Source: Olivibacter jilunii
Lineage (GTDB): Bacteria > Bacteroidota > Bacteroidia > Sphingobacteriales > Sphingobacteriaceae
Direction: 5' to 3'
Assembly: GCF_900607235.1 (NCBI RefSeq)
Contig: NZ_LR027849.1
Coordinates: forward strand, 434,001-498,000
DNA length: 64,000 nt
A program made the translations under genes and the position numbers. The notes beneath the pieces were generated by a model. The model was not told the origin of the DNA, did not search any database, and saw nothing but the letters and a program-made list of their open reading frames with translations. Numbering within the stretch: position 1 is the first letter of the stretch; each line of letters begins with the position of its first letter. Below are positions 5,120 to 20,750 of this stretch, piece by piece.

Positions 5120-8100
5120 TTACCTGAAATTACGTCCTTTCGGAAACAGCTCCAGTTGAGCATCAACCCGTACCTGCGTCCTTTTGTTTTTGGCAGGGAA
5201 GACATGGCCGTCTTTTTCATCGGCGGGCGAGAGTGTCCGCAGCTCGGCCTGCTTTCTTTCCTTCGGACCGAGCAGCGTGAGCAGCCCGGAGAGGTTGTAG
5301 AGCCTTTTGGCCACCACATGGGTAACCTGTCCCTCGCGCTGCAGTTTACCCTCTACCATCAACAGCTGCGAGTAGAGGATTTCCTTCCGGTACCGTTCAA
5401 AGAGACTCGCAAAGGCCACCAGGTTGGCCACGCCCGTTTCGTCCTCGATCGTGATGAAACAGACACCGCCCGCCGTTCCCGGGCGCTGCCGTACCAGTAC
5501 CAGTCCGGCCACCCGAACGGGCGTGCCATCGGGCCATCGGTCCAGTTCCCTCGTGGTCAGGATATCCCGCTCATAAAGCTGCCGCCGGATAAAACTCACC
5601 GGATGCGCCTTCAGCGAAAGTGCCAGCGAGCTGTAATCCTGCAGCACATGTTCCGATTCTGACATCGCCGGCAACCGCACCTTTTCTTCCGGTGTGCTCG
5701 CCGAAGGCTGCCCTTCAAAGATGCCCATGGGACGGTCATGGAGGGCCGACACCTCCCAGAGCGCCTGCCTGCGGTCCATGCCCATCGAGCGGAACGCATC
5801 GGCATCCGCCAGGCGCTCCAGCGAAGCGATGGAAACCCCTGCATCCGGCAGGAAATGGATATGCGTATAAGGTCTCTTCCGCGCCCGTACCAGCGCTTCC
5901 ATTTCCTCCCGGTTCATTCCCTTAACCTGCCTGAAACCCAGGCGCAGCGCGCAGTAGGGGCCTGTTTTCTCCTCCAGGGTATTGTCCCAATGGGAAAAGT
6001 TGACGTCAACGGGCCTTACCGTCACGCCATGCTCCCGCGCATCGCGCACAATCTGCGCCGGGGCATAAAAGCCCATGGGCTGGCTGTTCAGCAGCGCTGC
6101 GGCAAACACATCTGGGTAGTGATGCTTCAGCCAGCAGGAAACGTAAACCAAGAGGGCAAAACTGGCCGCATGGCTTTCGGGAAAGCCGTAGCTTCCGAAA
6201 CCTTCCAGCTGGCGGAACACCCTTTCGGCAAATTCCTTTTTATAGCCCCGTGATACCATGCCGTCGATCAGCTTCCTTTCGAACCGGCTCACCAGACCCT
6301 TCGCCTTAAAGGTGGCCATGCTGCGCCGCAGTTCATCCGCTTCGGCAGGGGTGAAGCCCGCGGCCACAATGGCGATTTTCATGGCCTGTTCCTGAAAGAG
6401 GGGCACGCCCAGTGTCTTGCCCAGAATCGCTTCCAGCTCGGGAGAGGGATATTCCACCTCCTCCTCACCGTTGCGCCTGCGCAGGTAGGGGTGTACCATA
6501 TCCCCCTGGATCGGGCCCGGCCGTACAATGGCCACCTCGATCACCAGGTCGTAAAAGTTCCGCGGCCGCAGGCGCGGCAGCATCGATTGCTGCGCGCGGC
6601 TCTCGATCTGGAATACCCCGATGGTATCGGCCGCGCTGATCATATCGTACACCTCGGGGTCATCCTGCGGTACGGTGGCCAGCGTCAGCTCCAGGCCGTG
6701 ATGTGCCCGTGCCAGATCAAAGGCCTTGCGGATGCAGGTCAGCATGCCCAGTGCCAGCACGTCGATCTTGAGGAAGCCCAGCGCATCGATATCGTCCTTG
6801 TTCCATTCGATGTTGGTGCGGTCCTCCATCCGTGCGTTGATCACCGGACACAGGTCGGTCAGTTTACCGTCCGTGATCACAAAACCGCCCGTATGCTGGC
6901 CCAGCTGGCGCGGAAAACCCATAAACTGCCGTGTCAGTTCCAGCACCTTTACCAGGTGAGGGTCCTTCGGGTTGAAGCCGTGCTCCGAAATGCGATCGCC
7001 CTCAAACCATTCGTCGGTAAACTCCCAGATGGAGCTCGACAGGCGGTTGATGGCATCCACCGACATGCCCATGGCCTTCGCCACATCCCGCACCGCGCCT
7101 TTCTGGCGGAGCTGGGTCACCGTGGCCACAATGCCCGCGCGGTCGCGTCCGTATTTTTCATAGATATACTGGATGATCTCTTCGCGGCGTTCGTGCTCAA
7201 AATCCACGTCAATGTCGGGCGGCTCGTTCCGGGCCGAAGAGATAAAGCGCTCGAAGAGCAGGTCAAACTTCGTCGGGTTCACCGCCGTGATGCCCAGGCA
7301 GAAACAGATGGTGGAGTTGGCGGCCGAGCCGCGGCCCTGGCAGAGGATGCCGCGCGAGCGGGCCTCCCGTACAATGTCATATACCGTAAGGAAGTAGGGC
7401 GCATAATCCATCTCCGCAATGAATTTCAGTTCGTGCACAATGGCCGATGAAACCTTTTCCGGCAGCGGATCACCGAAAAAGCCGTAAGCTCCCTGCCACG
7501 CCAGCCGGGTCAGTTCCTCCAGCGGCGTGCGTCCGTCCGGCATGATCTCCCTTGGGTACACATACTTCAGGCTGTCGAGGTTGAAGCGGCAGGCCTCCGC
7601 GATCCGCCGGGTGTTTTCGATGGCCTGCGGATATTTTCCAAAAAGGCGTTCCATCTCCCCGGCGGGCTTCAGGTAGCGTTCCGCATTCCCGTAAAGCAGG
7701 TAACCCGCATTGTAGATCGTTTTCTTTTCGCGCACACAGGTCACGATGTCCTGCAGCTGCCGCCGCTCGGGGCTGTGGAAATGCACATCGTTGGTGGCCA
7801 CCATCGGTATGCCGAAATCCGCTTCCAGTTCCGCTATGCGGTAGAGCCTTTTGGCGTCGCTGCCCCTGTACAGCCAGGAGGCCGCCACATAGAGTTGCCG
7901 GCCGAAGGCCTTTTTATATTCCAGCAGCTCCCTTCTGAAATCCTCTCCGAAATCAAATTCGTCATCAAGATCAACGGGAGGCAGGGAAATAAAGATCATG
8001 CCCTCTGCATAGCGATATACATCGGCCTTATAGAGCTCGCATTTCCCCTTTTCCGTCCGCCGGTTGCCTTCGGTCAGCAGCGCCGAGAGACGGGCGTAAG

Positions 8101-8350
8101 CATCCCTGTCCGTCGGGTAGGCCAGCAGGGGAGGGCCGTCCACAAGATTGAGGCGTGCGGCAGGGATGATACGCAGACCGTATTTTTTCGCAGCGCTGTG
8201 TGCCCGCACAATACCCGCCAGGGTGTTGTGGTCGGTTATGGCCATGCTCCCATAACCGAGCGCCGCGGCCTGTTCCACCAGTTCCTCCAGGTGCGAGGCA
8301 CCGCGGAGGAAGCTGAAATTCGAAGTGACCTGTAATTCCGTATAATCCAT
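5120..8350 (-). CDS. dnaE2: Error-prone DNA polymerase III alpha subunit DnaE2 (ImuC)
   Basis: A 1076-aa polymerase of the usual DnaE2 length. The N-terminal PHP domain begins with NFSFLRGASHLEELVEQA and contains AITDHNTLAG. The C-family polymerase core contains CQGRGSAANS and the catalytic Asp motif PPDIDVDFEHERR (about residue 380). HhH and OB-fold regions follow. It performs translesion synthesis together with ImuA and ImuB. The extreme C-terminus reads AQLELFPKGRNFR and includes a QLxLF sequence like the beta-clamp-binding pentapeptide. The start is 6 bp after imuB, so the genes are co-transcribed. Confidence 0.96.
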   Translation of the reverse strand: MDYTELQVTSNFSFLRGASHLEELVEQAAALGYGSMAITDHNTLAGIVRAHSAAKKYGLRIIPAARLNLVDGPPLLAYPTDRDAYARLSALLTEGNRRTEKGKCELYKADVYRYAEGMIFISLPPVDLDDEFDFGEDFRRELLEYKKAFGRQLYVAASWLYRGSDAKRLYRIAELEADFGIPMVATNDVHFHSPERRQLQDIVTCVREKKTIYNAGYLLYGNAERYLKPAGEMERLFGKYPQAIENTRRIAEACRFNLDSLKYVYPREIMPDGRTPLEELTRLAWQGAYGFFGDPLPEKVSSAIVHELKFIAEMDYAPYFLTVYDIVREARSRGILCQGRGSAANSTICFCLGITAVNPTKFDLLFERFISSARNEPPDIDVDFEHERREEIIQYIYEKYGRDRAGIVATVTQLRQKGAVRDVAKAMGMSVDAINRLSSSIWEFTDEWFEGDRISEHGFNPKDPHLVKVLELTRQFMGFPRQLGQHTGGFVITDGKLTDLCPVINARMEDRTNIEWNKDDIDALGFLKIDVLALGMLTCIRKAFDLARAHHGLELTLATVPQDDPEVYDMISAADTIGVFQIESRAQQSMLPRLRPRNFYDLVIEVAIVRPGPIQGDMVHPYLRRRNGEEEVEYPSPELEAILGKTLGVPLFQEQAMKIAIVAAGFTPAEADELRRSMATFKAKGLVSRFERKLIDGMVSRGYKKEFAERVFRQLEGFGSYGFPESHAASFALLVYVSCWLKHHYPDVFAAALLNSQPMGFYAPAQIVRDAREHGVTVRPVDVNFSHWDNTLEEKTGPYCALRLGFRQVKGMNREEMEALVRARKRPYTHIHFLPDAGVSIASLERLADADAFRSMGMDRRQALWEVSALHDRPMGIFEGQPSASTPEEKVRLPAMSESEHVLQDYSSLALSLKAHPVSFIRRQLYERDILTTRELDRWPDGTPVRVAGLVLVRQRPGTAGGVCFITIEDETGVANLVAFASLFERYRKEILYSQLLMVEGKLQREGQVTHVVAKRLYNLSGLLTLLGPKERKQAELRTLSPADEKDGHVFPAKNKRTQVRVDAQLELFPKGRNFR

Positions 8351-8356
8351 AAACCG

Positions 8357-9859
8357 TTAAGCAAAAAAACCATGCATGAACCATTCCGGCTCGCCCTCGC
8401 CATCATAATGCCCCGATCGGAAGAGCCAGTAGCGCGCGCCCTCTTCATCCTCCACGCGGTAGTAATCGCGCTGCGGACCCGTCTCGATCCACCATTCCCT
8501 TTCGATGCGCTCGGGCCCGTCCGCCTTTTTCACCTTATGCCTTTTCCCTTTGTACACAAAAACCATGGGCGGGTAATCCGGCACGGGAGCCGATACCCGG
8601 ATGGGCTCCGGCTCGGGCAGCAGGTAAATCGGGCGCGGCTCATCGATAGGCCAGGGGATGGCCGGCCGTTCGTCATAAGAGGTGGCAGGCCTGATGGAGC
8701 GCTCCGGCCAGTGGTGCTCATCCGGCAGATAGCGGCGGATGGCATCGTGGCCGGCACGCGTGGCGATCCGGTCGAGCAGATTGCCGATCTCCGTACTTTC
8801 ATAGACACCGCCATCGTTCCACAACTTCTCCTGTCGGGCATCCAGATCCTCCACAACGGGCGCTTCCAGTATAAAAAGCTCGATGCCCAGACCGGGGGCA
8901 ATGGTACCGATCTTTTCGCCGAACAGGCGGAAGAGGTGATGCCGGTCACGCGAAGGGCGGCCGGTGCCTATCTGGATCTGCTGTACCTTACCATCTATAC
9001 GGAAAGACCGGAAAACCGCCTTCCGCAGCCCCATCCCATCCTCCAGCAGATTCCGTGTAAGCATTTCCAACAACGTCTCCAGCGCCATTTCAATGGCCTT
9101 TCGCGTCCGTACCGGCTCCAGACAGGGCAGGCGTTCCGCATAAGGTGCCGGCGGCCGCACCGGTTCCAGCGGTTCGGGAGAGGTGCCCAGCGCCTGACCG
9201 ATGCGGTTGAGCAACTGCTCACCGAAACGGCGGCGCAGTACCGTACGGGGCATGCCGATAAAATCACCGATGTGGGTAAGGCCCAGCTTCTGCATGCGTT
9301 CCGTTATGGCCCGGTCCAAACGCAGCGCGGCAGGGGGGAGGGGCATCAGGGCCGCCAGCTGCCCACCCGGAGCAACCACGGCGCCATCCGTTCCATAACG
9401 GGCCACGGCCCATGCCGTTCCGATGGTGTCGGCCATGGCCATCCGCACATCATAGCCCGCGCCTTTCAGTTTCCCGGCAATCTCTCCCATATAGGGCCTT
9501 TCCCCTTTCCATAGGTGGGTGCAGCCGCTCGCATCCAGTATCAGCCCGTCCGGCAGATCGACGCCCGCCATCGGCGTATAGCGCAGACACTGTTCGGCCA
9601 GACGCTTCAGTAATTTTTCCGCCCGGTGGGGCTCATAATCGAAGACCTCCAGATCGGGATAAAGGGCACGCGCATCGGCCAGTACCATATTCACGGTAAC
9701 ACCTTCCGCCGCTGCCCCGGGGCTCAGGGCCCGGATCACCATGCGCCCCCGCTCGGGCGCGGCCAGTACAAAAGCCTTTCCGCGCAGTTCCGGCCGGTGG
9801 ATGGCCAGGTCATCCGTGAGCAGATGACGGAATGCTATCGCAACATATCTTTTCATCAT
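8357..9859 (-). CDS. imuB: ImuB, Y-family polymerase-like mutasome scaffold
   Basis: A 500-aa protein with the Y-family polymerase fold. At the N-terminus, where DinB has its DMD metal site, this protein reads YVAIAFRHLLTDDL, so the first catalytic acidic residues are missing, as is typical of ImuB. Palm and little-finger regions follow (GLILDASGCTHLWKGE; HIGDFIGMPRTVLRRRFGEQL), then a C-terminal extension ending in WFMHGFFA. ImuB normally bridges the clamp, ImuA and DnaE2. It overlaps imuA by 4 bp (ATGA), which indicates translational coupling. Confidence 0.94.
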   Translation of the reverse strand: MMKRYVAIAFRHLLTDDLAIHRPELRGKAFVLAAPERGRMVIRALSPGAAAEGVTVNMVLADARALYPDLEVFDYEPHRAEKLLKRLAEQCLRYTPMAGVDLPDGLILDASGCTHLWKGERPYMGEIAGKLKGAGYDVRMAMADTIGTAWAVARYGTDGAVVAPGGQLAALMPLPPAALRLDRAITERMQKLGLTHIGDFIGMPRTVLRRRFGEQLLNRIGQALGTSPEPLEPVRPPAPYAERLPCLEPVRTRKAIEMALETLLEMLTRNLLEDGMGLRKAVFRSFRIDGKVQQIQIGTGRPSRDRHHLFRLFGEKIGTIAPGLGIELFILEAPVVEDLDARQEKLWNDGGVYESTEIGNLLDRIATRAGHDAIRRYLPDEHHWPERSIRPATSYDERPAIPWPIDEPRPIYLLPEPEPIRVSAPVPDYPPMVFVYKGKRHKVKKADGPERIEREWWIETGPQRDYYRVEDEEGARYWLFRSGHYDGEGEPEWFMHGFFA

Positions 9860-10596
9860 GTACCGGTATGTGTATAGACTTTCTTTTTAACGGGGGCATC
9901 GGGCGCAATGTGCCGGAAGTTACCGGCCTTCCAGCACAGGTGCCAGGTGCCGGGCCTTCCGTTGCGTATCTTCCCGAGCTGCACTTCCCACAGCGGGTGG
10001 CCGATGCCCGGCAGGCGTCCGTCCTGCAGGCTGCTCAGGGGGCGTATGTTCCAGCGCGAGACGCAGGCCAGGTTATTCAGGCGCCGCGGGCGATAGCGGT
10101 GCAGAAAGCCCGTAACACGGCTCTGCTCCACGGCCAGCTGCAGGCGGCGCGAGGCCGTCAGGTCCAGGTCGCGGATTTCGCCCACCACAGCGGCGAGCGA
10201 AGGGCACTTAAGCGCCTCCTCCAGCACCCAGAGGGCATCCTTTTCCCCATGCAGGTTGATGAAGATCACCCGGTGGGGCTCAATGCCGAAACCCAGCAGA
10301 GAGGGCGGAAACAAACGCTTGCCGATGCTCACCCAGAGGCAGGGACCCTTCCGCTGCATCAGGCGGCCGATCAGGCAGGCGATGAAGCCGGTAGATGCCG
10401 CCGCTTCCTCCGCACTGTTACTGATAAATTCATGGATGGCCCCGAGCGGAAAGGTACCCATCGGGAAGGCCTTTTCCATCGGCCCCAGATCCCCGGGCAG
10501 TTCATCGCTTCCGTTCGGAGCGGAAAAACCCTCCGCTGCCAGAATCATTTTCCGCAGCTCCTCCACCACTGACTTTTTCTTCAACGAGGTTTCCAT
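9856..10596 (-). CDS. imuA: ImuA-like RecA-fold mutasome protein
   Basis: A 246-aa protein with the ImuA/SulA-related RecA-like core: MGTFPLGAIHEFI at the start of the fold, CLWVSIGKRLFPPSLLGFG in the first strand-helix region, and VVGEIRDLDLTASRRLQLAVEQSR. No classical Walker A motif is seen, as in other ImuA proteins. The C-terminal half reads like the ImuA tail (WEVQLGKIRNGRPGTWHL). It is the first gene of the mutasome operon; 70 bp separate it from the divergent LexA-like repressor. Confidence 0.9.
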   Translation of the reverse strand: METSLKKKSVVEELRKMILAAEGFSAPNGSDELPGDLGPMEKAFPMGTFPLGAIHEFISNSAEEAAASTGFIACLIGRLMQRKGPCLWVSIGKRLFPPSLLGFGIEPHRVIFINLHGEKDALWVLEEALKCPSLAAVVGEIRDLDLTASRRLQLAVEQSRVTGFLHRYRPRRLNNLACVSRWNIRPLSSLQDGRLPGIGHPLWEVQLGKIRNGRPGTWHLCWKAGNFRHIAPDAPVKKKVYTHTGT

Positions 10597-14154: not shown

Positions 14155-14964
14155 CTAATAAACCTTATTAATAACCTCCATAGCCTTTTTGTATGCTACG
14201 GTAGTTTCTTTGAACTGCTCTTTGAAAAAATAAAATAGGGCGATTTTATATTGTGGTATTTCCAAAAATATAAAATCGTCAATCGTATGGAAGAAATGAA
14301 AATGTTGGTTTGAGGTTTTGAAAATGAGTAAGGAATTGACGTGGTTTGCTTTATCCTTTACCGCTAGGCGTTTGTGAGCGTATCGAATTGTAGACAATAT
14401 CTTTGCAGGTGAATATCCTTTGTTAGGTAGTAGCAAGTATAAAGGAAAATCACTTAGATATGGAATATGTTTTCCATTTTTTGGACTTAGAAATTTTTTG
14501 GAAATATTCATGATTTGAAATTTATAATCAATAGTTTCAAGCCAGCGAATTATATGTTGCAGTTCGAAAATATTGAAAGCAAAGTCTTTCTCAAATCCTT
14601 CGTGAAACAGTTTTTGTATATACCTTTCCAAACTATTGAGCAATTCAGCATTGCATGTTGAGCAGGTTGGAATCGTTGCTTTATTGTACGTTACTGTGTG
14701 CCCGTTTACGGTGATATCAAAATATTTTTTTGTATCTTTTCGAAAGCACCACCGTGGTATAATATGCTCTCTTGTTATGTTAAGATGGGATCCACAAACC
14801 ATACAGATGAGATATTCGTTATTTTTGACAACTTCTTCATTTACGCGCAATACATAATTGTGATAAACGAATTCCATCACTGAGAGATTGTTTCTTCTGA
14901 TTATACCACGAAGTATCCTTAGTTTTGCATTTAGTCCTTTTAACTCGACAGAATTATTGCTCAT
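14155..14964 (-). CDS. HNH-like zinc-binding protein of unknown function
   Basis: A 269-aa protein. Residues 54-105 carry a treble-clef/HNH pattern: CMVCG, then EHIIPRWCF, then CSTCN. The Cys pairs (C54/C57, C101/C104) would hold zinc, and H67 with N105 fits an HNH core. The remainder is helical and not recognised. It overlaps the upstream 65-aa membrane protein gene by 4 bp (ATGA), so the two are coupled. A nuclease role in a defence context is possible, but no trained family is evident to me. Confidence 0.7.
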   Translation of the reverse strand: MSNNSVELKGLNAKLRILRGIIRRNNLSVMEFVYHNYVLRVNEEVVKNNEYLICMVCGSHLNITREHIIPRWCFRKDTKKYFDITVNGHTVTYNKATIPTCSTCNAELLNSLERYIQKLFHEGFEKDFAFNIFELQHIIRWLETIDYKFQIMNISKKFLSPKNGKHIPYLSDFPLYLLLPNKGYSPAKILSTIRYAHKRLAVKDKANHVNSLLIFKTSNQHFHFFHTIDDFIFLEIPQYKIALFYFFKEQFKETTVAYKKAMEVINKVY

Positions 14965-15342: not shown

Positions 15343-15419
15343 AAAATAAATTTCAGACGATGGGTTTATCTCACATGAGAATAGACGCAATAACTTTTTT
15401 TCATGTAGCGAAAATTGAT

Positions 15420-15427
15420 TATATTTG
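15420..15427 (+). promoter_or_regulatory. -7 box for the cyclase-like/sce7725 operon
   Basis: TATATTTG is an exact match to TAnnTTTG. It lies 36 bp before the ATG at 15463, which argues for that ATG as the start and against the in-frame TTG at 15415. Confidence 0.5.
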
Positions 15428-15462
15428 AGCCAACAATCAAAGCCCAAATAAGCCTATTATCT

Positions 15463-16317
15463 ATGCACGATATTGCACCTTATATTTTTCATAATCGAGC
15501 CGTTGCTTTTCTAGATGTTTTGGGATTTCAACAATTTCTAGGCGAATTTGATGCGGAGGCTAGGCAAAATCGGAAGCGCCTACCCGAAGAAAATGAAGAC
15601 CCTATATTGGGAGGTAGGTTCACCTCTCAGAAAGCGAACGAATTTATTGCAACATTTAAAAATGCCATAGAGCAGTTAGATAAAGAAAAGTACAGATACT
15701 ACCTGTTTTCAGATAATATCTGTATCACCTCCATTCAGGAGACCACCCCGAATGATTTGCAAGACCTGTTACTGGTCATCACTAAATTATATTTTGATTT
15801 CGCGAAAAAAGGATATTTCCTTAGGGGAGGAGTGGATTACGGACTTTTTATTGACGAAGAAACTATTGCAGTAGGAGTACCATTAGCCAACGCGTATTTG
15901 CTTGAATCGAAAATTGCGATATATCCTCGCATTGTGTTGTCCACAAATATTGTCGATCAATTCCAAGCATATAATCTGTTGGGCGAAAAGGAATATGACT
16001 ATCCCTTTGCTGATGTTATGATCGAAGGCGAAGACGTGAAGTATTTAAATATTTTTTTGCAGGTCTTTCAAAGTGACTATGTAGAGGATAAAAGACTTTT
16101 TTTTACTGATTTTAATCAAGTAATTGGTAACCATTTAGAAGAGAATAGACAAAACGAGCGTATATACGAAAAGTACCAGTGGCTTGCCGAGCAGTTTAAT
16201 ATATTTATTGACAAGTTTGTTAACGAACTTGCTTTTCAGGATAGTAACTTCGACCCCGAGAGCGACGAAGATTTTCTCGAATTTGTGAAAAAACAACGGA
16301 TAAATTATGGCAATTAA
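15463..16317 (+). CDS. Nucleotidyl-cyclase-like protein (class III fold suspected)
   Basis: A 284-aa protein counted from the ATG at 15463. The pattern resembles a class III cyclase core: FLDVLGF (D18, metal position), YYLFSDNICITS (D84), FLRGGVDYGLFI, then GVPLANAYLLES followed by PRIVLS, which parallels the GDxVNxAxRMES segment. The transition-state Arg is Leu here and the Asn is shifted by one residue, so activity is uncertain. It overlaps the next gene by 11 bp. Proteins starting with this FLDxLGF motif are usually left as hypothetical. It may make or sense a nucleotide signal for the adjacent sce7725/sce7726 pair; this is inference. Confidence 0.65.
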   Translation: MHDIAPYIFHNRAVAFLDVLGFQQFLGEFDAEARQNRKRLPEENEDPILGGRFTSQKANEFIATFKNAIEQLDKEKYRYYLFSDNICITSIQETTPNDLQDLLLVITKLYFDFAKKGYFLRGGVDYGLFIDEETIAVGVPLANAYLLESKIAIYPRIVLSTNIVDQFQAYNLLGEKEYDYPFADVMIEGEDVKYLNIFLQVFQSDYVEDKRLFFTDFNQVIGNHLEENRQNERIYEKYQWLAEQFNIFIDKFVNELAFQDSNFDPESDEDFLEFVKKQRINYGN

Positions 16318-17395
16318 CCTCATATACATGCCAACATTTAGGGCACGCCAACAGGAAAACCTCGTATTACGAAGCTTCAAGTTTGATGGCCACATGTACC
16401 CTATGTTAGAAATCATCAAAGAGTATGATCGAAAGAGAGACTCTGATAAACAATCTCCATTTCACGAAATCTACTTAGACCTTATTGAGACCATACAATC
16501 AGAGCGAGTGTTTGTTGACTTACCTTTATACCTAAAAGAACGGGCGTCAATGAAAAATGAGGTTATCGCATTCAGTCGTTCCGTCATTGCCAGTAAAGAA
16601 CGTCGTACAAAATACTTACAATCATTGGGAGAAGCTAGCCCAAAGATGATCCCAGTAATATCATCCTATTTACACAAGACCGGGGAAATTGATACCCTGC
16701 AATGGCAAGAGGCACATCTGCGTCCAAACTTTCCGTCCATCGCTTTTAGAGTAATGTACAATCAATTCAATGAAGATTGGCCAATTATCAACCAGCTTGC
16801 CACAGCAGTAGATTTTATCATACTCGATCTTGACAATATTGCACCATATCCTAGTCCATCAGTCAGACAAATCATGAATGCATGGAGATCTTTTAGTACC
16901 TGCCCCAAGATTATACTACGCAGCGCTATAAACACCGATATACAAAACGTTGGATTAGATCATGGCGAAGTGGTGTTTGATATCGATAACGGCTTAATAG
17001 ATACCTATAAACAACCCCTGCTTGGCCAATGCTTCGGCGATTATGCCGGTATTAAAAAAGATGATTTAACCTCCGGCGGAGCAATTAGTCCGGGTTTTCT
17101 TTTCTATGATGCCGTAGATAATCAATTCGTAGGCTTCAAGGGTAGTGTAAAAGAGCTTTCCGAATTTAAGAATACTATTGTGCCAGCGGTTATAAATTCC
17201 GAAGCTGCGAAGCGCATGCAAGCAAGTGGACTTCCGTATTTAGACGATCGAAATTGGGGCTGGCAAACGTTGCTCCGCATTCAGCACGAGGGCGAAACCG
17301 GAAAAAGCCAGGCAAAATTTAAACGTATTGCTATGGAACATTATCTACATTGCATTCGCGTGAAAATTGAAGCGGGAGAGCTTAAGACTTCTTAA
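16307..17395 (+). CDS. sce7725 / Beta protein (PF14350) family protein
   Basis: A 362-aa protein. The opening YMPTFRARQQENLVLRSF, the following PMLEIIKEY, the central AVDFIILDLDNIAPYP and the segment GQCFGDYAGIKKDD near residue 245 are the layout I know from phage-type Beta family and sce7725 family proteins. No catalytic assignment exists to my knowledge. In other bacteria sce7725 genes lie beside sce7726 genes, and that is also the case here, with 4 bp overlap of the convergent ends. The start overlaps the cyclase-like gene by 11 bp, so translation is probably coupled. Confidence 0.75.
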   Translation: MAINLIYMPTFRARQQENLVLRSFKFDGHMYPMLEIIKEYDRKRDSDKQSPFHEIYLDLIETIQSERVFVDLPLYLKERASMKNEVIAFSRSVIASKERRTKYLQSLGEASPKMIPVISSYLHKTGEIDTLQWQEAHLRPNFPSIAFRVMYNQFNEDWPIINQLATAVDFIILDLDNIAPYPSPSVRQIMNAWRSFSTCPKIILRSAINTDIQNVGLDHGEVVFDIDNGLIDTYKQPLLGQCFGDYAGIKKDDLTSGGAISPGFLFYDAVDNQFVGFKGSVKELSEFKNTIVPAVINSEAAKRMQASGLPYLDDRNWGWQTLLRIQHEGETGKSQAKFKRIAMEHYLHCIRVKIEAGELKTS

Positions 17396-18141
17396 TCTTG
17401 GTAGATCAATAGCGGATCCACATTTGTGTTAAAAAAAAATTGCAAATCTATAGGCAATATGTGCTTCCAGTGTGCCAAAACAAAAGACCAGCGAGCTTCA
17501 TAACGCTTTTTCAAGGCAATTTTTAAACGCTCGTTGATTTCTTGAGCAGTATATTCGCCCATAATTTCTGTGTATACAGCTGTCTTAAAAAGGCTGAGCC
17601 GTTCTTTCTTGGTAAGTACTTCCAATTGGGCAAGAGGATTAAGATAGGGACTTTTAATGGCAGACCGGTATTCCACACGCTTTTTCCCTTCAAAATACCA
17701 GATTCCGTAATGCGCTGGTACTAAACATTCCGTTTCACGCAGGTGCTTGGCATCAATTACTACCGTATTATATTCAAATATTCTATGATAATCATCACTC
17801 TGTTTCCCCAAGCGCCTCAAAGTGTCAATTTTCGACTTTACCTCAAAGCATTTCGAATCACCGTTAATTACCACAAAATCCGCTCGGCTGTTTTTTGCAC
17901 GCACTTCAAATGCAGCAACGTATCCCTTCTTCCTGAACGTAGTGGCGAGCTTATATTTTAAAGACTCTTCACCATGATAGTTTGAAAAAAGAGCTTTATT
18001 AATTTTAAGATGCAGTTGGTATTTAGACAAACCGTCCGTCTTACATTTTCCGTAACAGGCCTCTACTATTTGCAGTAACTGTTGACGGTAATGCAGGGTG
18101 TTATAAGATTTTGCCAGTGCAGTATAATCTACTTTGCCCAT
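17392..18141 (-). CDS. sce7726 family PD-(D/E)xK nuclease-like protein
   Basis: A 249-aa protein. Residues 75-105 carry a PD-(D/E)xK core: the Asp in RADFVVING (D88) and the FEVKS motif (E100, K102), preceded by the strand VAAFEV. The C-terminal part is helical and basic. I place it in the sce7726 family, whose genes accompany sce7725. It is convergent to the sce7725-like gene and shares 4 bp with it. A nuclease in a defence or toxin-type pair is the likely role, but its target is unknown. Confidence 0.78.
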   Translation of the reverse strand: MGKVDYTALAKSYNTLHYRQQLLQIVEACYGKCKTDGLSKYQLHLKINKALFSNYHGEESLKYKLATTFRKKGYVAAFEVRAKNSRADFVVINGDSKCFEVKSKIDTLRRLGKQSDDYHRIFEYNTVVIDAKHLRETECLVPAHYGIWYFEGKKRVEYRSAIKSPYLNPLAQLEVLTKKERLSLFKTAVYTEIMGEYTAQEINERLKIALKKRYEARWSFVLAHWKHILPIDLQFFFNTNVDPLLIYQD

Positions 18142-18296: not shown

Positions 18297-20750
18297 TTAT
18301 CCTGCTGCGGTTATGGCAACTTCGACATTATCATCTTCTGTCTGCTTAGTGATAAGTTTCTTTAAGTTTGTGGAATGAAAGCCATCAAAATATTCAATAA
18401 TATCTATTGTTTCCAATGCGATATTCCTCAATGCGTCATCAGTAATGAAGTTACTTTCATCCAAATGTTGTGTGTTTCCGTGAGAAAACCCATCACATAA
18501 CTTATTTATGTTTGAGAGTTTGTCTTGTATATTATCTTTTGATATTTTTCCTACTGAAGTATCAGGCAACGTTTCAAAGTCTATTATATCTGAAATGAAG
18601 TATTCCAGGCCAGCAGATTGATTAGCGTTGGATTTCGTTGTCAATTGAGCATATTTGAAACTAAAAAATGTTTCTAATATTCGACGGATATAATTCGGCA
18701 AGTATTTTCTTGCTTCTTCATAATTCGGTGTTTCATCACTTGAAAATTCGAGAAGACTTTCCAACATATAAAAATAGGGGCTTTGGAAATTTTGTAATGA
18801 CTTGGGTAAGTCGCTTATACACCCCCTATTTATAAGGTAACAGGATTTTGAAGTTTTTACTCGGAAATTTGGATTCAGAAACTTCATAAACAACAAATTG
18901 TGGCTTAGGATAAACAGTTGCCTATAATCTTTAAACTCCTTGTGTATCAAATAGGCTGTTTGATATAAGCGATTGTCATCGAGGCTTGAAATTGGATCGT
19001 CAATAACGATGATAGTATTGCCTTTATCTTTAACTTCCGTCGTGACCTTGCTCAGGAAATACGCAAAGGCCAAAGCTGTTTTCTCGCCATCGCTCAAAGT
19101 ATTGCGTAGTCGCTTCCGTATTTTTTCCGAATTATTATACTTAATTAAAATGTTCTCATTATCGTCCTCTTCATTAAGGTCGATGGTGAAATGATTGATG
19201 CCGAGTTTCTCCAAATATTCCCCTACTTTTTTTGCCTCCAACTTTAAAGCGCGGAGTCTCTGCATCTTCGCAGTCGAATGTTGAATTAGTTCATTGTTGT
19301 ATGTTGCGATTTGCGAGCTTAGTTCGTGGTATTTTTTTACGTTATTTTTGTCTTCGTGACCGTTCAATTCCAAGATTATTAGTTTTGAATAGAGGCGTCT
19401 GATGTCAGTTTCTAGTGTTTCGGGGCTTTTTCTCCGGGCTTGAAGGGTTGAAATCAATTCGTCCTTGAAATCAGTCAATTTTTTAATATCCTCGTTATAA
19501 TTTTCAATTGCCGATTGGATGTTGGTTAACTCAAAATCTATAATCTTTGAAGAATTATTTCCTTTGTCATCAACGAGATCTGTTAGCGTCTTTATCTGGG
19601 AAGTTAATCCGTCTATCCGGACGTCAGGCATCTTGTTCTCCAGCATGGCATTGTACTTTGTGGCTTCCTGTTGCAAGGTGGTTTTTGAATCCTTGTTAGC
19701 TGTACAAAAATTTTGAGCGGTGGCCAGTTGACGCGTATGATCGGCTATGTTTTGCTTAAATTCTTCATAGCTGCTATCAAAGTATTCCCCAAATTCCTTT
19801 ATTAAATCAATAATGGTGTTATTGAGATTAGAATTACATAGAGGGCAAGTTGTTTCGTCGGTCTGATTTGATTTCTCTAAAAGTAATTTTCCGAATCTGT
19901 ACCAAGGCTCTATCTTACTTATATCTTCCTCGTTGACTTTGGCTTGAAAAGTTTCAATTTTGCTTTTTAAAGTGGTTACAGCTTTTTCTCTGGCGGTAGT
20001 ATTAAGTAGGGTTTTCAAAGACGGAAAATCCAATGAAATTTGACTGAATGAAACATTTCCTAACTTTTCTATATCCGCGATAAGGGCTGCCTGGTCTTTA
20101 CTGATTTGATATTCAGATATTTTTTGCCTGATAGCTAACTCTAAATCAGATTTATTTTCCGTAGGAATGCTTTGTACATCAGGGAAATTTGGATTTCTGA
20201 GATTGCCACTTGGGAATGTTTCCCTAAATTTTTTGTTAAATTGCTGCTTGATGGCTTCAAAACTGCTTTTATATTCCTCTTGCTCTGATTCACTCTTGCC
20301 TTTGTCTAATTCTTTTTTCTCGATGATTTCGTTTAATTCCACGATTTCAGGATCTTCCAATACCGTTTCTGCCACATTGAATTTCTGAATTTTTCCTTTC
20401 CTTCCGTCAAAAACATGGTCGGCAACAAAATTGGAATTGAAAACGTAAATACTCTTATTATTGTTGTGACCGTCTCCGGTAAGGGGATAGAGTAATGTTT
20501 CCTTGTCGGTGCAGAGGAATTTAACTTTAGCATCATCAGAGCATTTTAAATCGTCAAATAAATCTTGTTTCTTTTCGGACGGGAAGTTCTGGTTTTTAGC
20601 AATCAAGTTGAAAAGATTGGACAGAGTGGACTTTCCGCTACCATTAAATCCGAAAATCAAATTGTACTTTCTAAAATCTTCACTGCAATTCCACGAGAAA
20701 TTATCGAAGATACTCAACTTCTTAATTTCGATAAATTTTAGGATACTCAT
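18297..20750 (-). CDS. AAA_13 ATPase, RloC/PrrC-like putative tRNA anticodon nuclease
   Basis: An 817-aa protein with an ABC-type ATPase split by a long coiled coil. Walker A GFNGSGKST is at residues 34-42, the signature LSDGEK at 552-557, Walker B IIVIDDP at 580-586 and the H-loop His at 617. The coiled-coil insert (about 140-515) bears CPLC at 302-305, a zinc-hook motif as in Rad50 and RloC. The C-terminal part has R689xxxE693 and H757, the R-E-H arrangement of PrrC/RloC anticodon nucleases. Such proteins cleave tRNA during phage infection or DNA damage. The nuclease call rests on these three residues and the layout; AAA_13 also contains non-nucleases. Confidence 0.72.
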   Translation of the reverse strand: MSILKFIEIKKLSIFDNFSWNCSEDFRKYNLIFGFNGSGKSTLSNLFNLIAKNQNFPSEKKQDLFDDLKCSDDAKVKFLCTDKETLLYPLTGDGHNNNKSIYVFNSNFVADHVFDGRKGKIQKFNVAETVLEDPEIVELNEIIEKKELDKGKSESEQEEYKSSFEAIKQQFNKKFRETFPSGNLRNPNFPDVQSIPTENKSDLELAIRQKISEYQISKDQAALIADIEKLGNVSFSQISLDFPSLKTLLNTTAREKAVTTLKSKIETFQAKVNEEDISKIEPWYRFGKLLLEKSNQTDETTCPLCNSNLNNTIIDLIKEFGEYFDSSYEEFKQNIADHTRQLATAQNFCTANKDSKTTLQQEATKYNAMLENKMPDVRIDGLTSQIKTLTDLVDDKGNNSSKIIDFELTNIQSAIENYNEDIKKLTDFKDELISTLQARRKSPETLETDIRRLYSKLIILELNGHEDKNNVKKYHELSSQIATYNNELIQHSTAKMQRLRALKLEAKKVGEYLEKLGINHFTIDLNEEDDNENILIKYNNSEKIRKRLRNTLSDGEKTALAFAYFLSKVTTEVKDKGNTIIVIDDPISSLDDNRLYQTAYLIHKEFKDYRQLFILSHNLLFMKFLNPNFRVKTSKSCYLINRGCISDLPKSLQNFQSPYFYMLESLLEFSSDETPNYEEARKYLPNYIRRILETFFSFKYAQLTTKSNANQSAGLEYFISDIIDFETLPDTSVGKISKDNIQDKLSNINKLCDGFSHGNTQHLDESNFITDDALRNIALETIDIIEYFDGFHSTNLKKLITKQTEDDNVEVAITAAG

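Follow-up and report, generated by a model that had tools for sequence, protein, structure and literature searches.

Three adjoining genes in a 64,000-nucleotide stretch of the Olivibacter jilunii genome (contig NZ_LR027849.1, positions 434,001 to 498,000; this whole stretch is called the window below) form one horizontally moving unit. They encode a protein predicted to have the fold of the class III nucleotide cyclases, which we call cyc, a Beta family protein and a convergently encoded sce7726 family protein, a putative nuclease (Table 1). From the genomic context it is probable that this trio serves in defence against phages or mobile elements. We propose, tentatively and with slightly less than even confidence, that it is a mobile defence module in which the nucleotide-using cyclase-fold protein cyc controls the nuclease sce7726 via Beta.

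When 84,980 species genomes were scanned with an alignment built from cyc and five relatives, 242 relatives were found and the analysis was continued with the best 80; the distant relatives described here are a sample set by this limit. The 80 sequences split into two groups, 22 with 35–63% identity to cyc over the aligned part and 58 with 23–33%. In all 20 close relatives with enough contig around them cyc is followed by Beta and a convergent sce7726 in the same order and orientation as in the window. The other two close loci are cut by a contig end, one with cyc and Beta still visible (L052) and one inside cyc itself (L084). Neither sce7726 nor a trio-type Beta was found near any of the 58 distant cyc loci within at most 6 kb on each side, 9 of these loci being shorter than 6 kb in total. 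The hidden Markov model (HMM) of the trio Betas misses the non-trio Betas of L030 and L031, whereas the sce7726 HMM does detect non-trio loci. That a divergent Beta is missing near the distant cyc genes is therefore concluded from the absence of sce7726. The initial annotation had joined the three genes into one candidate defence module and had named two outcomes that would refute it, a structure prediction without a cyclase fold and a third gene that does not accompany the pair. Neither came about: a cyclase fold is predicted (see below), and every complete close locus has cyc next to a Beta/sce7726 pair of the matching type.

The 20 trio cyc sequences form a single clade with a support of 1.0. 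The pairwise distances of cyc, Beta and sce7726 are correlated among 18 members (r 0.958, 0.914 and 0.923, with none of 2000 permutations giving values as high; L040, L044, L052 and L058 were left out), an agreement which still contains the effect of host relatedness. Of the hosts with a name nearly all are Bacteroidota; the names point to the Bacteroidales, Flavobacteriaceae, Cytophagales, Cyclobacterium, Algoriphagus and Pedobacter, and there are in addition one metagenome-assembled genome (MAG) of the Ignavibacteriales and one MAG named Chlorobiaceae. Since cyc and Beta are 95% identical between a Flavobacteriaceae MAG (L037) and Labilibaculum filiforme (L041), we conclude that the module moves between orders. 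The trio of L043 is identical with that of L044, and L018 and L058 refer to a single locus; the independent cases are therefore fewer than the loci counted.

The trio is rare and its distribution is patchy. With the genome of the window included, cyc-like proteins of any kind were found in 9 of 201 genomes of the family and in 12 of 296 genomes of the phylum, and trio-type Betas in 3 of 395 genomes of the class and in 2 of 395 of the phylum. There are three open trio-type Betas in the two 395-genome samples (window, G672 and G477) and cyc adjoins all of them; these cases repeat loci already counted from the cyc side, G672 corresponding to L052, where the contig ends early, and G477 to L058, where cyc has a stop. 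In G795 (L147) Beta has decayed to a fragment, the adjoining sce7726 frame is open with 265 residues, and cyc was not detected within 1.5 kb of the Beta fragment.

The trio is placed in an A+T-rich stretch of the window, the host genome having a size of 6.7 Mb. The 11-bp overlap of cyc with the middle gene and the 4 bp shared by the middle gene with the convergent sce7726 had been correctly read in the initial annotation, and the gene starting with ATG at position 15463 on the forward strand is confirmed as well. The start at 15415, which had also been given, was not upheld: it is an in-frame TTG upstream of the ATG, and the starts chosen for the close relatives lie at most five codons from the position of the ATG in the window. 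Among the 20 loci with an uninterrupted cyc/Beta junction (of 21 with cyc and Beta) this junction ranges from a 4-bp gap to a 14-bp overlap. Besides the window the overlap measures 11 bp in 11 loci, 4 bp in four and 14 bp in one, and the remaining four junctions lie between a 4-bp gap and 0. Judged from the reading frames the 11-bp overlap is likely to bring about translational coupling of cyc and Beta. The convergent 3′ overlap of Beta and sce7726, 4–24 bp in length, is conserved in 20 of 20 measurable loci; the antisense role suggested earlier for this arrangement found no support beyond the overlap itself.

Table 1. Features of the cyc–Beta–sce7726 locus (positions in the window)
Feature	Position	Strand	Remark
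cyc, class III cyclase-fold protein (predicted), 284 aa	15463–16317	+	ATG start; without Pfam, NCBIfam or PADLOC family
Beta family protein (PF14350), 362 aa, predicted (beta/alpha)8 barrel	16307–17395	+	Pfam 8.2e-22
sce7726 family protein (NF033832), 249 aa, PD-(D/E)XK-type motif D88, E100, K102	17392–18141	-	NCBIfam 1.2e-30
D18 codon of cyc, first metal-aspartate position of the class III core	15514–15516	+	invariant; hhalign
D84 codon of cyc, second metal-aspartate position	15712–15714	+	invariant; hhalign onto the GD Asp of cyclases
11-bp overlap of the cyc and Beta reading frames	16307–16317	+	common to 11 further loci
4-bp convergent 3′ overlap of Beta and sce7726	17392–17395	no strand	
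D88 codon of sce7726	17878–17880	-	alignments
E100-x-K102 codons of sce7726	17836–17844	-	alignments
AAA_13 ATPase, PADLOC candidate PDC-S06	18297–20750	-	neighbour, outside the conserved trio

For the structural analysis of cyc we used an alignment of 69 sequences; besides the window protein it contains 68 cyc references out of 78 that were usable. L044 was left out as a duplicate, and L072, L076, L084, L089, L097, L101, L104, L105 and L110 were left out for an odd start, a short length or as near-duplicates; the sequences of L058 and L108 were not usable. The AlphaFold2 model calculated with this alignment has a mean pLDDT of 89.3 and a pTM of 0.87. When the PDB was searched with the model using Foldseek, ranks 1–39 were all class III adenylate or guanylate cyclases (best E 4e-5). 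Likewise the best 50 rows listed by VIA-align are all class III cyclases, and Rv1625c (7yz9) is aligned with a Z of 15.3 and an rmsd of 2.8 over 159 residues. According to this model cyc has the fold of the class III cyclase catalytic domain. The initial annotation had pointed to such a fold from a cyclase-like pattern, and its elements D18, D84, GGVDYG and LLES are all present.

On the sequence level the cyc alignment was compared by hhalign with 11 PF00211 domains taken from the order of the host (of 20 PF00211 loci retrieved). The match had a moderate probability of 70.8 (E 3.8e-5, 143 columns), as compared with 0.7 for an unrelated control. In this comparison D18 and D84 of cyc are placed on the metal aspartates D14 and D58 of the cyclase alignment and the RGGVDYG strand is placed on the RxGIxxG strand of the cyclases. 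All 69 cyc members have D18, D84, R121, G122, E148 and K237, and R156 is present in 20/20 trio members and in 46/49 others. A set of residues including Y80, N85, D131 and P140 is invariant in the trio proteins and different in most or all distant members. Cyc carries moreover a C-terminal helical extension with the invariant K237 and the nearly invariant W240.

None of the family collections Pfam, NCBIfam and PADLOC has a family matching cyc at E ≤ 10, and all 69 members together gave no credible match in Pfam, the best hit being to an unrelated family (E 0.012). Sequence searches of cyc against the PDB sequences and against named phages returned nothing credible. In a viral fold library a single row had an E below 0.001, a response regulator of a giant virus; the other rows were loose, some of them being named guanylate cyclase domain. 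That cyc is an mCpol or a GGDEF protein is less likely, as in Foldseek the GGDEF and Cmr2 proteins come after the class III cyclases and no mCpol is among the Foldseek and VIA-align rows listed. The cyc family as a whole consists of broadly distributed orphan proteins with the predicted class III cyclase fold, found in many phyla and in 36 plasmid records and covered by no Pfam family. In a Spirosoma plasmid and in a genome of the family of the window a cyc-like domain stands behind an N-terminal part of about 290–300 residues (L008:3119-4927 and L013:601-2406), at L061:5965-7686 there are two cyc-like genes in tandem, and on an Agrobacterium plasmid (L004:256-4840) dsr1, an anti-phage sirtuin gene, is followed after about 150 bp by a distant cyc gene.

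The middle gene had been taken for sce7725. It matches the Pfam family Beta_protein (PF14350) with 78.6 bits at a cut-off of 27 and does not match the NCBIfam model of sce7725 (NF033831) at E ≤ 10, while a protein annotated as sce7725 matches this model at 5e-87. With NF033831 silent and PF14350 matching, the identity as sce7725 is ruled out; sce7725 and Beta show a faint N-terminal resemblance (E 0.1 to 0.41). In the model of Beta, calculated with 21 sequences (pLDDT 84.8), strands and helices alternate as in an eight-fold barrel. The model aligns to TIM barrels of many kinds and the best of them are tied, e.g., the tRNA-guanine transglycosylase (TGT) 7owz with a Z of 13.2 (277 residues), tryptophan synthase alpha (TrpA) with 13.1 and DpdA 7ui4 with 12.3 (275 residues). 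We therefore rejected a TGT or DpdA function deduced from fold rank alone, since unrelated barrels tie. The 21 Beta sequences have 53 invariant columns, several of which are polar and lie in the model beside the strand ends assigned by DSSP, and these residues suggest a ligand-binding or active site.

The assignment of the third gene to the sce7726 family stands, NF033832 being matched with 106.8 bits at a cut-off of 70. E79, R86, D88, E100 and K102 are invariant in 19 of 19 trio members, and D88, E100 and K102 are also found in all nine proteins of a mixed set from several lineages, three of which are trio members. As judged from these alignments sce7726 keeps the core residues of the PD-(D/E)XK nucleases and is a putative nuclease. 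At E ≤ 10 Pfam gave solely a sub-threshold SfsA match for sce7726, and for both Beta and sce7726 sequence searches against the PDB returned nothing credible. Sce7726 also matches the PADLOC model 'cll' (5.9e-14), which could not be tied to a described system.

We then turn to the neighbouring genes. The flanks of the trios contain 131 open reading frames (ORFs), of which 93 were scanned for families (those dropped by hand were mostly short) and 20 have per-protein results; in four of the 19 trio loci (L045, L048, L049 and L050) the upstream flank is shorter than 5 kb. In at least 7 of the 19 loci the upstream flank carries, on the same strand, genes of restriction-modification systems. These encode HsdR (L037, L038 and L041), an HsdR-like helicase (L039), HsdM (L040), a type III Res protein (L043) and an Eco57I/MmeI-type methylase (L047). 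In L037, L038, L040, L041 and L043 no other ORF of 100 or more residues lies between the restriction-modification gene and cyc, the distance being 5–190 bp. HsdR N-terminal domains were detected in 3 of the 93 scanned proteins, and about 0.08 matches would be expected in the approximately 163 kb of flank, as calculated from 134 matches in approximately 276 Mb of 80 phylum genomes. The enrichment represents two or three events, because L037 and L041 share 95% identical trios and have a similar HsdR. Other neighbours of the trio are a Schlafen-type helicase together with an M78 peptidase (L042) and a caspase-domain protein (L053). The neighbours of the distant cyc genes are mixed among the families listed, with AbiH, AAA, few restriction genes and others.

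In the window itself the trio is adjoined by an AAA_13 ATPase, which matches the PADLOC models PDC-S06 (2.9e-56) and PrrC (5.9e-14) and is probably a separate defence gene; in L038 an AAA_13 match is also found between HsdS and HsdR beside the trio. On the other side, at 14155–14964 on the reverse strand, an unassigned protein with a faint HNH match below the cut-off (E 0.063) is encoded. About 5 kb away from the trio there is a cassette of a DNA polymerase III alpha-type and a Y-family polymerase (5120–10596), which we take to be DnaE2-like and ImuB-like. A polymerase 67% identical to that of the window lies directly beside the trio at L046:8927-12759, and possibly the two loci share an insertion site.

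Starting from a conserved unit with predicted folds, intact metal and nuclease residues and a defence-like context, we infer a nuclease activity, a nucleotide step, an order of control and a phage trigger, which could be put together as follows. A phage or its replication would alter something that is met by cyc. Cyc would bind metal and a nucleoside triphosphate with its two invariant aspartates and would make or sense a nucleotide which controls Beta and the nuclease. Beta, probably produced from the same transcript as cyc, would relay the signal as a regulator or ligand-handling partner of sce7726, and sce7726 would be the nuclease effector cutting nucleic acid. A more far-reaching version, which we regard as rather unlikely, sees in the trio a new branch of nucleotide-signal immunity, with cyc making the nucleotide, the TIM-barrel protein Beta reading it as receptor and sce7726 being switched on or off. 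In this version cyc would be an enzyme family outside Pfam which retains, of the residues of the classical class III cyclases, only the two metal aspartates and has R121, E148, R156 and K237 as an invariant or nearly invariant set of its own.

Two groups of observations, besides the effect of host relatedness in the distance data, weigh against control of a nuclease by a nucleotide-using cyc. The first concerns the active site. Y80, I135, A142 and L146 of cyc are put by hhalign at four canonical active-site positions of the cyclases; presumably positions 80 and 135 correspond to the base-recognizing Lys and Asp (the canonical pair being Lys/Asp or Glu/Cys) and positions 142 and 146 to the transition-state Asn and Arg. 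In the trio proteins position 80 is Tyr in 20/20 and Lys in 0/20, position 135 is Ile, Leu or Val in 20/20 and Asp in 0/20, position 142 is Ala, Val or Thr and Asn in 0/20, and position 146 is Lys in 9/20 and Arg in 1/20. The 49 distant members have Lys-80 in 12 cases, Asn-142 in three, Arg-146 in two and Asp-135 in none. As the residues canonical for chemistry and base choice are mostly replaced, cyc may not be a cyclase. Nor did Pfam reveal a receptor domain for cyclic nucleotides in either Beta or sce7726. Of the Pycsar-like effector system envisaged by the initial annotation the fold was recovered, but not the canonical residues, which are mostly replaced, nor a Pfam receptor domain for the cyclic nucleotide.

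These replacements are what would be expected if cyc were a pseudo-cyclase, which binds nucleotide and metal, makes no messenger and serves as a sensor or allosteric subunit of a Beta–sce7726 nuclease complex. The tight cyc/Beta junction may point in the same direction, suggesting matched amounts of the two proteins as in a complex. However, the conservation of D18, D84, R121, E148 and K237 in all 69 members fits catalysis better than binding alone, and the Lys-146 of nine trio proteins could replace Arg. The pyrimidine cyclases too have residues of their own two positions before the first aspartate and around the second, F100, R142 and Q144 in EaPycC and F60, K104 and F109 in AnPycC (PMC11224242), and OptS of the Panoptes system is described as active although the GGDEF motif is nearly absent (PMC12657218). 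The missing classical set is therefore not decisive for the activity of cyc. On balance we consider the pseudo-cyclase somewhat unlikely, and that cyc makes a real messenger is a matter of some doubt, with the chances leaning slightly to the negative.

The second group of observations concerns loci in which the pair does without cyc. PF14350 was found in 7 of 395 phylum genomes and sce7726 adjoins Beta in all six besides the one of the window (in G582 Beta is in pieces). Cyc is absent from 1.5 kb on each side of Beta in all six. Convergent pairs are also present in Escherichia coli CP061267 (a plasmid with phage genes; 41-bp 3′ overlap) and in Rhodococcus CP128997 (35-bp 3′ overlap), no cyc being shown at either locus. 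The same convergent layout of Beta and sce7726 occurs in Escherichia phage Rac-SA53 (KU052037) and in the Gordonia phages DumpsterDude and Powerball (MN234218 and MT024859); these phage-borne pairs are candidates for prophage-borne defence. Among the plasmid records 26 have a Beta match, 25 an sce7726 match and 36 a cyc match, and none of the last is among the former two. The phage records searched with cyc gave no match, and in the viral contigs scanned with patterns derived from cyc and from the trio Betas no relative was confirmed. A trio as the general form of the pair, as one could have read the initial annotation, is thus not supported by the six other phylum genomes and by the phages and plasmids, and cyc is not essential to the core since the pair exists elsewhere without it. 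The three trio Betas that were scored reach 61–79 bits with PF14350 and seven others 162–259 bits. It looks as if cyc is an addition to an older Beta–sce7726 core that has been retained in one clade. Within this clade the cyc gene of L058 (= L018) at 5950–6858 has an in-frame stop, and Beta and sce7726 are open. This locus could be a natural test for function or tolerance of the pair without cyc, or else an assembly error. Finally several flank genes of the trios are metabolic, e.g., those for an asparaginase and a proton pyrophosphatase.

A further question is whether the trio has to do with defence at all. It could instead be a mobile cassette for nucleic-acid modification, repair or plasmid/prophage maintenance with Beta as the enzyme, and in this case the alignment of the Beta barrel to the transglycosylase 7owz and to DpdA 7ui4 and the location of two trios (window and L046) near a polymerase gene of one kind would find their place. 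The Z values, however, are matched by other barrels such as tryptophan synthase alpha, little can be learned about function from a TIM barrel, and the restriction-modification and phage contexts favour defence, which makes such a cassette quite unlikely. Even less likely is a guard as in Panoptes, in which a constantly made product of cyc would restrain Beta and the nuclease until a phage enzyme removes the product and frees the nuclease. Such a guard has its precedent in Panoptes (PMC12657218) and would be in keeping with the lack of a Pfam sensor domain in the trio. But with a stop in cyc of L058/L018 beside open Beta and sce7726 frames, and with pairs existing without cyc, it follows that the nuclease needs no restraint by cyc, at least there. 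A chance adjacency of an unrelated cyclase-like gene to the pair, to which one could be led by pairs without cyc and cyc relatives without the pair, is practically ruled out by the 20/20 close loci, the matching distances and the joint transfer as a unit.

When control of the nuclease by cyc via Beta is compared with known systems, Pycsar has in common with the trio a stand-alone class III cyclase-fold protein with two metal aspartates beside a likely toxic effector. The difference lies in the partners, PycTM or PycTIR beside PycC in Pycsar, and Beta and a PD-(D/E)XK-type protein in the trio; no cyclic-nucleotide-binding or TIR domain was found by Pfam at E ≤ 10 in the eight window genes scanned. 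PADLOC-DB presumably holds PycC models; the number of its families matching cyc was zero. For CBASS, likewise, no PADLOC model matches cyc, and no CD-NTase is among the 50 VIA-align rows listed, all of which are class III cyclases. With the canonical class III cyclases (PF00211) cyc shares fold, motif order and both metal aspartates, but the four canonical active-site positions are mostly different in the cyc proteins, which have in addition a C-terminal helical part. Panoptes (OptS, an mCpol, with the 2TM effector OptE) resembles the trio in being a small defence operon whose enzyme has a polymerase/cyclase fold, two key aspartates and few other motifs of its family (PMC12657218). The solved structures closest to cyc are those of class III cyclases, which makes an mCpol less likely, and the partners match Beta and sce7726. 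The Beta/sce7726 pairs (PF14350 and NF033832) are convergent and 3′-overlapping as in the trio, but lack cyc at the E. coli and Rhodococcus loci and have Betas with higher PF14350 scores. The sce7726/sce7725 pairs (NF033832 and NF033831) contain the same nuclease family, but are co-directional in Moraxella and Arthrobacter plasmids and have with sce7725 a protein of another model.

A description of the trio was not found in the literature searched, in part by titles and abstracts, many subscription papers and most preprints being outside this search, and PF14350 is named nowhere in it. Sce7726 is named in four of the papers and sce7725 in three. In PMC12457778 and PMC13414232 sce7726/sce7725 are list entries, and in the latter 'beta family protein' and 'anti-phage' occur in separate places. 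The main text of DefensePredictor (PMC13092281) does not name sce772x or Beta.

The recurrent and unexplained Beta/sce7726 pair of phages and plasmids is now tied to a protein predicted to handle nucleotides, and its mechanism becomes testable. At the same time the analysis exposes a broad orphan family with a predicted cyclase fold which is missing from Pfam. Should cyc prove active, bacterial immunity would gain a new messenger enzyme; should it prove dead, the cyclase fold would serve here as the scaffold of a nucleotide sensor.

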